Below, piece after piece: positions 7,845 to 11,324 of a DNA stretch of 41,914 nt (position 1 is its first letter; each line of letters begins with the position of its first letter). The notes under the pieces were generated by a model, which saw only the letters and a program-made list of their open reading frames with translations, was not told where the DNA came from and made no database searches. Source of the DNA: Nocardioidaceae bacterium. Lineage in GTDB: Bacteria; Actinomycetota; Actinomycetes; Propionibacteriales; Nocardioidaceae. The translations under genes were made by a program, and so were the position numbers. The stretch covers positions 1 through 41,914 of the forward strand of contig JACCWP010000085.1 of the NCBI GenBank assembly GCA_013697585.1. Reading direction: 5' to 3'.

Positions 7845-8990
7845 TCAGCTGGTCGGGATCTCCGCGTCGGCGACGATCTCGCCCTTCTCGACCTTGTAGG
7901 CCCAGACCACGACGTTGGTAGGTTCGCCCTTGTCGTCGAAGGCGATCTCCTTGGTCACGCCCGGACCCTCGAAGTTGGCCACGAACTCGAGCATCGCCTC
8001 GCGAGTCAACGCACCGTCGTCGATGCCCGCGAGGAACACGTTGGTCGCGTCGTAGCCCTCGGCGGTGTAGGTGCCGGGCACATCGCCAGTCGCCTGCTTG
8101 TAGGCGTCGAAGAATTCGGGCGTATCCTCGGGCGGGACGCAGGGACAGGTGATGATCGTGCCCTCGGTCGCCGACCCGCCTGCCTCGATGTATGCCGGGT
8201 CCTTGACCCCGTCGGCGGTGACGAACGTGCCGTCGAAACCGCCTGAGCGCAGCTGCTTGATCAGCCGCCCCGCTTCCGGGTAGTAGCCGCCGTAGAACAG
8301 CGTGTCGGCCCCGGAGGCGGTGACCTTGGTGACCGACGAGGAGAAGTCGTCTGCCTTAAGCTGGATCGTGTCGGTGCCGACGACGTCGTCGCCAAGGGTC
8401 TCCTCGACGATGCCGGCCAGGCCGGCGCCGTACTCCGACGCATCGTCCATGACGAACACGCTGGTGCTGCCGATGGTGTCGGAGATGTAGGCCGCCGCCG
8501 CGGGTCCCTGGGTGTCGTCGTTGCCGAGCATCCGGAAGAACGTCTCCCAGCCGTTCTCGGCCAGCGTCGGGGCCGTCGCCGACGGTGTGATCGTCGGGAG
8601 GCCGGCCTGGGCGAAGATCGGGCCGGCGGCGGCGCTCTCACCGGAGAACGCCGGTCCGACGATGCCGATCACGGCGTCATCGTCGATCGCGCTCTTGGCG
8701 AGGTCCGGCGCCGCGGTCTCGCTGCCCTGAGAGTCGTACTCCTCGAGGGTGACGTCGCAGTCGCCTTCGTACTGGTCGATCGCGAGCTGGACGCCGTTCT
8801 TGATGTTCTGGCCCAGCGCGGCGTAGTCGCCCGTCAGTGCCCCGAAGAAGCCGAGCGAGACAGCACAGCCGCCGCCGGCGGCGTCGGACGCCTCCTCCTC
8901 GTCGCTGGTGGTCCCCCCACAAGCGGTGAGCAGGAGGCCGGCAGCCATCGTGGTGGCCGCCACGCGCCAGGTCATGGTGGTGCGGAGCAT
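7845..8990 (-). CDS. livK: Branched-chain amino-acid ABC transporter substrate-binding lipoprotein
   Basis: Extracytoplasmic receptor (Peripla_BP_6 / Leu-Ile-Val-binding fold) for the LivHMGF importer. The 381-residue product starts MLRTTMTWRVAATTMAAG and has the lipobox LLTAC with Cys at position 24, then an acidic linker. The mature domain shows LGFFGALTGDYAALGQNIKNG, DVTLEEYDSQG, VIGIVGPAFSGESAA, FFRMLGNDDTQGPAAA and TYTAEGYDATNVFL. The ATG at 8990 is preferred over the open frame to 9044 because it directly follows GGAGGATCC and gives a proper lipoprotein signal. Ligand could be Leu/Ile/Val or amide/urea-type; sequence alone does not settle this. Confidence 0.92.
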   Translation of the reverse strand: MLRTTMTWRVAATTMAAGLLLTACGGTTSDEEEASDAAGGGCAVSLGFFGALTGDYAALGQNIKNGVQLAIDQYEGDCDVTLEEYDSQGSETAAPDLAKSAIDDDAVIGIVGPAFSGESAAAGPIFAQAGLPTITPSATAPTLAENGWETFFRMLGNDDTQGPAAAAYISDTIGSTSVFVMDDASEYGAGLAGIVEETLGDDVVGTDTIQLKADDFSSSVTKVTASGADTLFYGGYYPEAGRLIKQLRSGGFDGTFVTADGVKDPAYIEAGGSATEGTIITCPCVPPEDTPEFFDAYKQATGDVPGTYTAEGYDATNVFLAGIDDGALTREAMLEFVANFEGPGVTKEIAFDDKGEPTNVVVWAYKVEKGEIVADAEIPTS

Positions 8991-9050: not shown

Positions 9051-9056
9051 AGCCTA
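9051..9056 (-). promoter_or_regulatory. Probable -10 element of livKHMGF
   Basis: TAGGCT on the minus strand about 60 nt before the livK ATG, giving a leader of about 50 nt that ends with the GGAGG ribosome-binding site. The hexamer also touches the decayed ANTAR gene's stop region. Confidence 0.4.
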
Positions 9057-9372
9057 GCCCGCTCGTGTTGGCTGCTGGTCACTTCGTCGGCGTGGTGGGG
9101 GGTCGTTGTCGAATCGTGACCAGAGTTCTGCTCCCCGCGTCCTTCGGCGCGACGAGCCCTCGGCCATGGACAGATCGTGATCGATGACGCCCTGGGCAAC
9201 TTGTCGCATGGTCCACCGGAGGTCCAGCGCGGTCTTCTGGATCCACCGGAACGCCGCCGGCTCATCGACGTGCAGCGACTGCTGCAGCAGGTGTTGGCTC
9301 GCTCGACGAGCTTGCAGGTCTCCAGCCGGTCGGTAAGGACGCGACGCAACGCGGGGGTGCCAGCGACATCGC
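9054..9372 (-). pseudogene. Remnant of an ANTAR-domain response regulator (PdtaR-like)
   Basis: Two reading frames together spell an ANTAR RNA-binding domain. The first (about 9372-9288) gives LTDRLETCKLVERAN; the second (about 9293-9054) gives LLQQSLHVDEPAAFRWIQKT, then ALDLRWTMRQVAQGVIDHDL. This matches the ANTAR pattern of an A-x-x-x-R-K-L-I-E-R-A-K-G start, an E-A-F-R-L-L-x-x-x-A-M-D middle and an M-R-Q-V-A end. A one-frame shift near 9290 breaks it, and the ~120-residue receiver domain that should precede it is absent; its place is taken by repeats and a tRNA. In Streptomyces an ANTAR response regulator sits between the liv cluster and pyk, as I recall, so this is probably the decayed resident gene. 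PdtaR proteins act as antiterminators. Confidence 0.72.
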
Positions 9373-9398
9373 TCACGTGGCAAGGTTGTCGGGCCCAG

Positions 9399-9437
9399 TG
9401 AGGTGATCTGTTGAGGTGATCTGTTGAGGTGATCTGT
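9399..9437. repeat. Three tandem 13-bp repeats upstream of tRNA-Leu
   Basis: TGAGGTGATCTGT occurs three times back to back without a mismatch, ending 18 nt before the tRNA. Each junction forms a TTGAGG hexamer, which resembles a -35 box, so the repeats may influence the tRNA promoter or may mark slippage at an old junction. Confidence 0.9.
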
Positions 9438-9455
9438 GTAAAGGCGATTGGTCCA

Positions 9456-9538
9456 GCCGGGTTGATGGAACTGGTATACATAGCGCTCTCAAAAGGCGCC
9501 GTCCTAAGGACATGGGGGTTCGAATCCCCCACCCGGCA
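9456..9538 (+). tRNA. tRNA-Leu (anticodon CAA)
   Basis: An 83-nt class II tRNA. Acceptor stem GCCGGGT pairs perfectly with ACCCGGC, discriminator A. The D-stem is ATG/CAT around GAACTGGTATA. The anticodon arm is GCGCT-CTCAAAA-GGCGC (last pair T-G), anticodon CAA for UUG codons. The long variable arm has stem GTCC/GGAC with loop TAA. The T-arm is GGGGG-TTCGAAT-CCCCC. The terminal CCA is not fully encoded (CCC follows), so it must be added enzymatically. It lies on the plus strand between two decayed reading frames, opposite to the genes around it. TTG/UUG is a rare codon in this GC-rich genome. Confidence 0.93.
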
Positions 9539-9572
9539 CCCAACTGTCCGTGGCTGAATCGACGATGGATTC

Positions 9573-9768: not shown

Positions 9769-11226
9769 CTAGGCGGGGGGCGGGAGGCCGCGGTACGCGG
9801 GCGCGACCCCGTGCAACGCGTCGCCCATGCGGTGGATGCGCAGGGCGTTGGTGGAGCCGGCGATACCTGGCGGGCTGCCGGCGACGATGACGACCAGCTC
9901 ACCCTCACGGCAGCGGCCGATCTCGAGCAGGCTGCGGTCCACCTGCATGACCATCTCGTCTGTGTGCTCGACCATCGGTGTGTGGAAGGTCTCGACCCCC
10001 CAGGTCAGCGCCAGCTGTGAGCGCACCGCCTGCATCGGCGTGAAGGCCAGCACCGGGACCCGCGAGCGGTAGCGAGCCAGTCGCTTCGCCGAGTCACCCG
10101 ACGTGGTGAACGCGACCAGGAACTTGGCGTGGATCGCCTCGGCCACCTCGCCCGCGGCCTTGCACACGATTCCGCTGCGGCTCTGCGGACGCCACTCGAT
10201 GGCGGCCATCTGGTGCAGGCCGTGGTCCTCGGTCGACTCCACGATGCGAGCCATCGTGCGTACGGTCTGGATGGGGTAGTTGCCCACGCTGGTCTCGCCG
10301 GACAGCATCACCGCGTCGGCGCCGTCGAGCACCGCGTTGGCGACGTCGGAAGCCTCGGCGCGGGTCGGCCGGGCGGCCGAGATCATGGACTCGAGCATTT
10401 GCGTGGCAACGATCACGGGCTTGGCGTTGCGCCGGGCCTTGTCGATGATCTGCTTCTGCACCAGGGGGACCTCCTCGAGGGGCAGCTCCACCCCGAGGTC
10501 GCCGCGAGCCACCATGAACGCGTCGAACGCGTCGACGATCTCGTCGAGGTTCTCGATCGCCTGTGGCTTCTCGATCTTGGCGATCACTGGCACCCACACG
10601 CCGACCTCGTTCATGACCTTGCGCACGTCGTCGACGTCGGAAGCCCGGCGCACGAACGACAGGGCGATCAGGTCGACCGGCAACGCCAATGCCCAGCGCA
10701 GGTCCTCGACATCCTTGGCCGACATCGCCGGCGCGCTCACGTCGACACCAGGCAGGTTGATGCCCTTGTTGTCGCTGAGGGTGCCGCCGATCTCGACGAC
10801 GGTCCGGACATCACCGCCGTCGACCTCGCGGACGCGCAACCGCACGCGGCCGTCGTCGAGCAGCACCTCGTCGCCCGGACGGACGTCACCGGCCAGACCC
10901 CGGTACGTCGTCGAGCAGATGTCCTGGCCGCCCTCGACGTCTCGGGTGGTGATCGTGAACTTGTCGCCCTCGCCCACCGTGACGGGACCGTGGGCAAACC
11001 GGCCGAGCCGGATCTTGGGCCCCTGCAGGTCGGCCACGATGCCGATCGCCCGACCGCTGGAGTCGGAGGCCTCGCGCACCAGGTCGTAGGCAGCCTCGTG
11101 GTCGGCGTGGTCGCCGTGGCTCAGGTTGAGCCGGGCGACGTCCATGCCCGCGTCGGCGAGCTGGCGGACGCGCTCAGCAGATGCGGTCGCGGGTCCGAGC
11201 GTGCAGACGATCTTGGCTCTACGCAC
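9769..11226 (-). CDS. pyk: Pyruvate kinase
   Basis: Converts phosphoenolpyruvate and ADP to pyruvate and ATP at the end of glycolysis. The 485-residue product starts RRAKIVCTLGPATAS and has the substrate-binding barrel with NLSHGDH, LQGPKIRLG, the pyruvate kinase signature VIAKIEKPQAIENLDEI, MVARGDLGVELP, IVATQMLESMI, PTRAEASDVANAVLDGADA and MLSGETSVGNYP, then the C-terminal domain with FTTSGDSAKRLARYR. The GTG at 11226 is chosen: TAGGGT lies 8 nt upstream (leaderless) and the homology begins at once. A longer frame is open to 11280 but adds unrelated residues. It is monocistronic by layout. Confidence 0.95.
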   Translation of the reverse strand: MRRAKIVCTLGPATASAERVRQLADAGMDVARLNLSHGDHADHEAAYDLVREASDSSGRAIGIVADLQGPKIRLGRFAHGPVTVGEGDKFTITTRDVEGGQDICSTTYRGLAGDVRPGDEVLLDDGRVRLRVREVDGGDVRTVVEIGGTLSDNKGINLPGVDVSAPAMSAKDVEDLRWALALPVDLIALSFVRRASDVDDVRKVMNEVGVWVPVIAKIEKPQAIENLDEIVDAFDAFMVARGDLGVELPLEEVPLVQKQIIDKARRNAKPVIVATQMLESMISAARPTRAEASDVANAVLDGADAVMLSGETSVGNYPIQTVRTMARIVESTEDHGLHQMAAIEWRPQSRSGIVCKAAGEVAEAIHAKFLVAFTTSGDSAKRLARYRSRVPVLAFTPMQAVRSQLALTWGVETFHTPMVEHTDEMVMQVDRSLLEIGRCREGELVVIVAGSPPGIAGSTNALRIHRMGDALHGVAPAYRGLPPPA

Positions 11227-11234
11227 AGTCAGCC

Positions 11235-11240
11235 ACCCTA
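11235..11240 (-). promoter_or_regulatory. -10 element of leaderless pyk promoter
   Basis: TAGGGT on the minus strand, 8 nt before the pyk GTG. No Shine-Dalgarno is present between them. Confidence 0.5.
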
Positions 11241-11324
11241 TGCGCTGTCCCCGCTCCCAATCCCTGCCACACGACGTCATCCGGCTCGTGGCCCGTCGGC
11301 GACGATCCGCATGACGTCCGGGGG

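Follow-up and report, generated by a model that had tools for sequence, protein, structure and literature searches.

A pdtaR relic between tRNA-Leu(CAA) and livK and the probable repeated loss of the PdtaS-PdtaR pair in Nocardioidaceae

In the general model of ANTAR regulators, the phosphorylated protein binds paired hairpins in mRNA leaders. The kinase PdtaS phosphorylates PdtaR, which binds hairpin RNAs via its ANTAR domain, and binding to the 5' RNA of PPE1 was measured to be about threefold tighter when PdtaR is phosphorylated (PMC8131098). In mycobacteria, the PdtaS-PdtaR pair has been linked with resistance to copper and nitric oxide as well as with the balance of iron and redox state (PMC8131098, PMC11537054), and it is reported to be conserved in all Mycobacterium species (PMC11537054). 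From Streptomyces, a PdtaS-p/PdtaR-p pair has been described by Li et al. (2020, as cited in PMC8164766); according to the same citing paper, deletion of the ANTAR protein SSDG_04087 in S. pristinaespiralis gave a bald phenotype and less pristinamycin.

We compared these systems with a locus of an uncultured Nocardioidaceae bacterium (G000) whose nearest named relatives, judged by pyruvate kinase, belong to Nocardioidaceae and whose genome comprises 2.94 Mb in 299 contigs and is 98.9% complete; the window, i.e., the whole stretch of DNA analysed, is its contig C225 (41,914 nucleotides), in which an Rfam scan over the full length gave zero matches. Mycobacterial PdtaR (Rv1626) and PdtaS (Rv3220c) belong to the same family by sequence type, with the AFRWIQKTAMDLR signature in the ANTAR domain, and, as in the intact relatives of G000, the regulator consists of a receiver plus ANTAR. 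The kinase gene of Mycobacterium tuberculosis lies apart from the regulator gene, which is likewise the case in the intact relatives, whose kinase gene adjoins whiB1. In G000, in contrast, only a relic of the regulator remains, and there is no kinase. Streptomyces resembles the locus studied here in having a PdtaR orthologue near pyk, but its pair is intact and functional, unlike the G000 relic.

The relic (positions 9150 to 9341, minus strand) retains the 3' part of pdtaR, covering the end of the linker, the ANTAR domain, and the C-terminal tail. A whole-genome search with the Pfam ANTAR profile (PF03861), a check proposed in the first-pass annotation of the window, scored 33.5 bits at 9183-9290 on the minus strand against a cut-off of 27.3, a repeat search gave 32.3 bits, and an HMM of PdtaR built from intact relatives matched with 55.1 bits over its columns 143-188; in a control with 2000 shuffles of the stretch the top score was 5.7 bits. 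The PF03861 match spans profile positions 19-54 of 54, the first 18 lying outside its frame. Translation against an alignment of intact PdtaR placed the first ANTAR helix in one frame (VLTDRLETCKLVERA, 9296-9340, minus strand), while Pfam and translation placed the remainder in a second one (HLLQQSLHVDEPAAFRWIQKTALDLRWTMRQVAQGVI, 9183-9293, minus strand). When the DNA of the intact pdtaR of a relative, G004, was aligned with the relic, the two proved collinear between 9341 and roughly 9150, apart from a single frame-changing length difference near 9293. The PdtaR subtype of ANTAR (RLETRKxVxRAKGxLQ...EPxAFRWIQKTAMD) is recognisable, with the signature AFRWIQKTALDLR, though split across the two frames, and no single open reading frame therefore encodes a PdtaR. 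Furthermore, the first helix has Cys in 'LETCK' where each of the eight aligned intact PdtaR proteins has Arg.

Nothing of the receiver could be recognised. In relatives this domain, which bears the phospho-acceptor Asp, takes up about 125 codons, whereas in G000 its place (9342-9455, minus strand) is reduced to ~114 bp without receiver similarity, and neither the PdtaR HMM nor the G004 alignment, which has a gap here, gave a receiver match between 9341 and the tRNA gene starting at 9456. Within this place lies a perfect tandem repeat of three 13-bp units (TGAGGTGATCTGT, 9399-9437), possibly the scar of a deletion. With its receiver deleted and its ANTAR domain frameshifted, the gene cannot give a normal PdtaR, and judged by its sequence we class 9150-9341 as a pdtaR pseudogene that yields no working PdtaR. 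The first-pass annotation had read the ANTAR domain across two frames and regarded the receiver as gone, both of which held; its extent for the feature, 9054-9372, was somewhat wide, as the homologous part of this real feature is 9150-9341. Taken alone, the relic is an ordinary pseudogene of a known family.

One could argue that the ORF at 9054-9383 (109 aa, TTG start) still yields a short ANTAR protein that has no receiver and acts as an unregulated RNA binder, as no stop codon interrupts the frame between 9383 and 9054 and its third-position GC over the in-frame ANTAR part, 9183-9293, is 0.892, compared with 0.909 in pyk. A young pseudogene can, however, simply retain such a value, and third-position GC drops outside the ANTAR stretch, to 0.52 on its upstream side and 0.63 on its downstream side. 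Moreover, this ORF would encode an ANTAR domain without its first third (18 of 54 positions), the TTG start falls in unrelated sequence, and no relative with such a form was seen. We consider the short protein highly improbable and treat the feature as a pseudogene hereafter.

The neighbourhood of the relic is conserved. In G000 the order is pyk, encoding pyruvate kinase (9769-11280, minus strand; an ORF with matches in 53 of the 58 genomes sampled), tRNA-Leu(CAA) (9456-9540, plus strand), the relic, and an ORF for a livK-like branched-chain amino-acid ABC binding protein (7845-8990, minus strand; 58% identical to its G004 counterpart). The order in G004 is identical, but an intact PdtaR is encoded between tRNA-Leu and livK, and the arrangement pyk - tRNA-Leu(CAA) - intact pdtaR recurs across Nocardioidaceae. 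Beyond the family, four Streptomyces loci (L169, L170, L171, and L179) have an intact PdtaR 0.3-1.1 kb from pyk, with tRNA-Leu(CAA) between the two in both of the Streptomyces loci scanned for tRNAs. Loci of Thermomonospora, Intrasporangiaceae, and Nakamurella likewise have PdtaR near pyk, and those scanned have tRNA-Leu(CAA) nearby; in the mycobacterial loci no PdtaR was seen within 7 kb of pyk. As a separate observation, the strand of the pyk-side tRNA-Leu(CAA) is reversed relative to the usual one in four Intrasporangiaceae-type loci (L164 and L166, 8505-8588; L165, 1573-1657; L167, 8487-8570). From the order shared by the relatives and Streptomyces it follows that the pyk - tRNA-Leu(CAA) - pdtaR site is ancestral, and the comparison with G004 shows that an intact ancestral gene once lay between tRNA-Leu(CAA) and livK in the G000 lineage. 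The comparison with close relatives proposed in the first-pass annotation supports its reading: an ANTAR regulator of the PdtaR type has decayed here at a conserved place, which is occupied in G004 by an intact pdtaR. The annotation also placed a Streptomyces ANTAR regulator between the liv cluster and pyk, which the four Streptomyces loci corroborate on the pyk side; the livK side was seen in G004.

That annotation had left open whether the regulator was lost or had moved elsewhere. A whole-genome search with the PdtaR alignment found no intact PdtaR elsewhere in G000: among its other response regulators the best match gave E=1.7e-18, while true PdtaR orthologues, present in 44 of the 58 genomes, gave E values of 1e-86 to 1e-115. 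As the genome is 99% complete, the gene was lost, not moved. The remaining ANTAR proteins of G000 are three intact GAF-ANTAR proteins, two encoded in tandem on contig C223 and one on C156. They have the ANTAR domain in common with PdtaR, but their sensor is a GAF domain and not a phosphorylated receiver, and they are not PdtaR orthologues; as relocated PdtaR they were rejected, having no receiver and not being full-length PdtaR. In the tandem pair (L104, 1339-3704 of C223), the first protein has a long N-terminal part (523-aa frame) and the second is standard. The survival of these three proteins would allow the function of PdtaR to have shifted to another ANTAR protein or another locus, but they score just 8-18 bits with the PdtaR HMM, a full-length PdtaR occurs nowhere else in the genome, and with PdtaS gone (see below) there is no kinase for a successor to answer to. 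We deem such a shift very unlikely and retain decay in place without relocation.

The absence of PdtaS was evident at several levels. The PdtaS-specific GAF domain (PF12282) had no match in G000, which consequently does not count as PdtaS-bearing, although it was found in 50 of the 58 genomes, including G001 of the same genus, and in 240 of 245 Nocardioidaceae genomes drawn family-wide at a completeness of at least 90% each, G000 being one of the five without it. Full-length G001 PdtaS gave nothing at E<=1 in a tblastn search of G000. In G001, pdtaS is flanked by whiB1 on one side and a GNAT acetyltransferase gene on the other; both flanks are assembled on G000 contig C30, where no pdtaS relic was detected (top HMM score, 2.3 bits). 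Since the two flanks are assembled without pdtaS, its absence from G000 is a loss and not a matter of missing data, an explanation that was also rejected more generally, as every one of the eight genomes lacking PdtaS has the whiB1 side of this site assembled. The former pdtaS site of G000 (L103, 2786-4758 of C30) holds a DUF3311 gene followed by one for a sodium:solute symporter (PF00474), an operon-like pair; it was rejected as a common replacement because among the PdtaS losers only G000 has it there. The change in a two-component pathway foreseen by the first-pass annotation is therefore better put as the loss of the whole pathway, and of its two options, loss or relocation, it was loss that applied.

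These data also bear on the question of an assembly or sequencing error behind which the gene would be intact in the organism. The assembly is a 299-contig draft and a length change of a single base could be a mistake, yet the entire receiver is absent between neighbours that are both intact and contiguous, an otherwise invariant residue is altered, another assembled locus independently lacks PdtaS, and the double loss is repeated in other genomes. Given the missing receiver together with the frameshift, sequencing error offers no explanation, and we hold an intact gene to be extremely improbable.

PdtaS was lacking in eight of the 58 genomes sampled (G000, G002, G003, G009, G012, G022, G025, and G033). 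None of these eight encodes an intact PdtaR, compared with 44 of the 50 PdtaS-bearing genomes (Fisher p=1.6e-6), and when only genomes at least 90% complete were counted, PdtaR was missing from 5/5 of those lacking PdtaS versus 2/45 of those bearing it (p=1e-5). At the pdtaS site of the eight genomes, assembled on the whiB1 side in each, no relic was found. The pdtaR site is assembled in seven of the eight and lies at a contig end in G003. In G009, G012, G022, G025, and G033, tRNA-Leu adjoins livK with no trace of pdtaR detected between them, whereas G002 has a second pdtaR relic between tRNA-Leu and livK (L136, 5144-5440), a broken receiver fragment (Pfam Response_reg, 39.8 bits) with the ANTAR gone; the relics of G002 and G000 thus keep opposite parts of the gene, receiver fragment versus ANTAR. 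Beside the emptied site of G033 (L138, 2371-3790), livK matches as two pieces with a break near 2815, possibly a frameshift or an assembly error.

The six PdtaS-positive genomes without PdtaR (G001, G015, G026, G031, G034, and G035) are drafts in which the pdtaR site seems to be unassembled, with contig ends or pyk missing; tRNA-Leu(CAA) had no match in them in a DNA search that is not fully sensitive for tRNA. In G001 the contig stops inside the C-terminus of pyk, and the assembly yielded no match to tRNA-Leu(CAA) or livK, so its pdtaR site is unassembled. Among the 58, no genome with PdtaS was found in which an assembled pdtaR site lacks PdtaR.

The distribution of the losses points to more than one event. 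G001, G027, and G031, each of the same genus as a loser (G000, G002, and G009, respectively), retain PdtaS at the ancestral whiB1 site, and G027 retains PdtaR as well. With same-genus keepers for three losers, several independent losses of the pair are indicated, which suggests that pdtaS and pdtaR are retained or dropped as a unit. The pyk tree requires four changes, at least three of them by well-supported branches, and unless lost genes returned to their old sites, the independent losses exceed the count from that tree. The genomes of the losers are 1.9-3.1 Mb in size, at the small end of the family, and small PdtaS-positive genomes exist too. We consider it likely that the PdtaS-PdtaR pair is near-universal in Nocardioidaceae and was lost as a whole on several independent occasions, leaving some small-genome lineages without a working half, two of them with relics still in the course of decay.

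Taken together, it is very probable that pdtaR decayed in place, that pdtaS was lost, and that this double loss recurred in Nocardioidaceae, from which we infer that the pathway can be dispensed with. PdtaS-PdtaR signalling may have become dispensable where its signals or targets ceased to matter, and the loss of one partner would have left the other without a role, so that both decayed. In the G000 lineage the kinase was probably the first to go, as relics were found of pdtaR only, in two cases (G000 and G002), and none of pdtaS. Following the general model of how ANTAR regulators act on mRNA leaders, the former RNA targets of PdtaR would now either escape its regulation or answer to the remaining GAF-ANTAR proteins.

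No paper joining PdtaS with gene loss in Actinobacteria was found in the literature searched, and the repeated paired loss, the modestly interesting part of this work, is as far as that search goes a new observation, one that supports the known pairing and overturns little. As a repeated outcome in nature it provides evolutionary evidence, of an independent kind, for the pairing of PdtaS and PdtaR, whose genes lie at a distance from each other and which were functionally paired in mycobacteria; it also suggests that no second client of the kinase is essential in Nocardioidaceae. The losing lineages amount to natural knock-outs, and comparison of ANTAR-target RNAs in congeneric pairs of keepers and losers (G027/G002, G001/G000, and G031/G009) could show which leader RNAs depended on PdtaR. 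If the paired loss is as described here, neither partner would be useful without the other in Nocardioidaceae, and the RNA regulon would be dispensable in some lifestyles.
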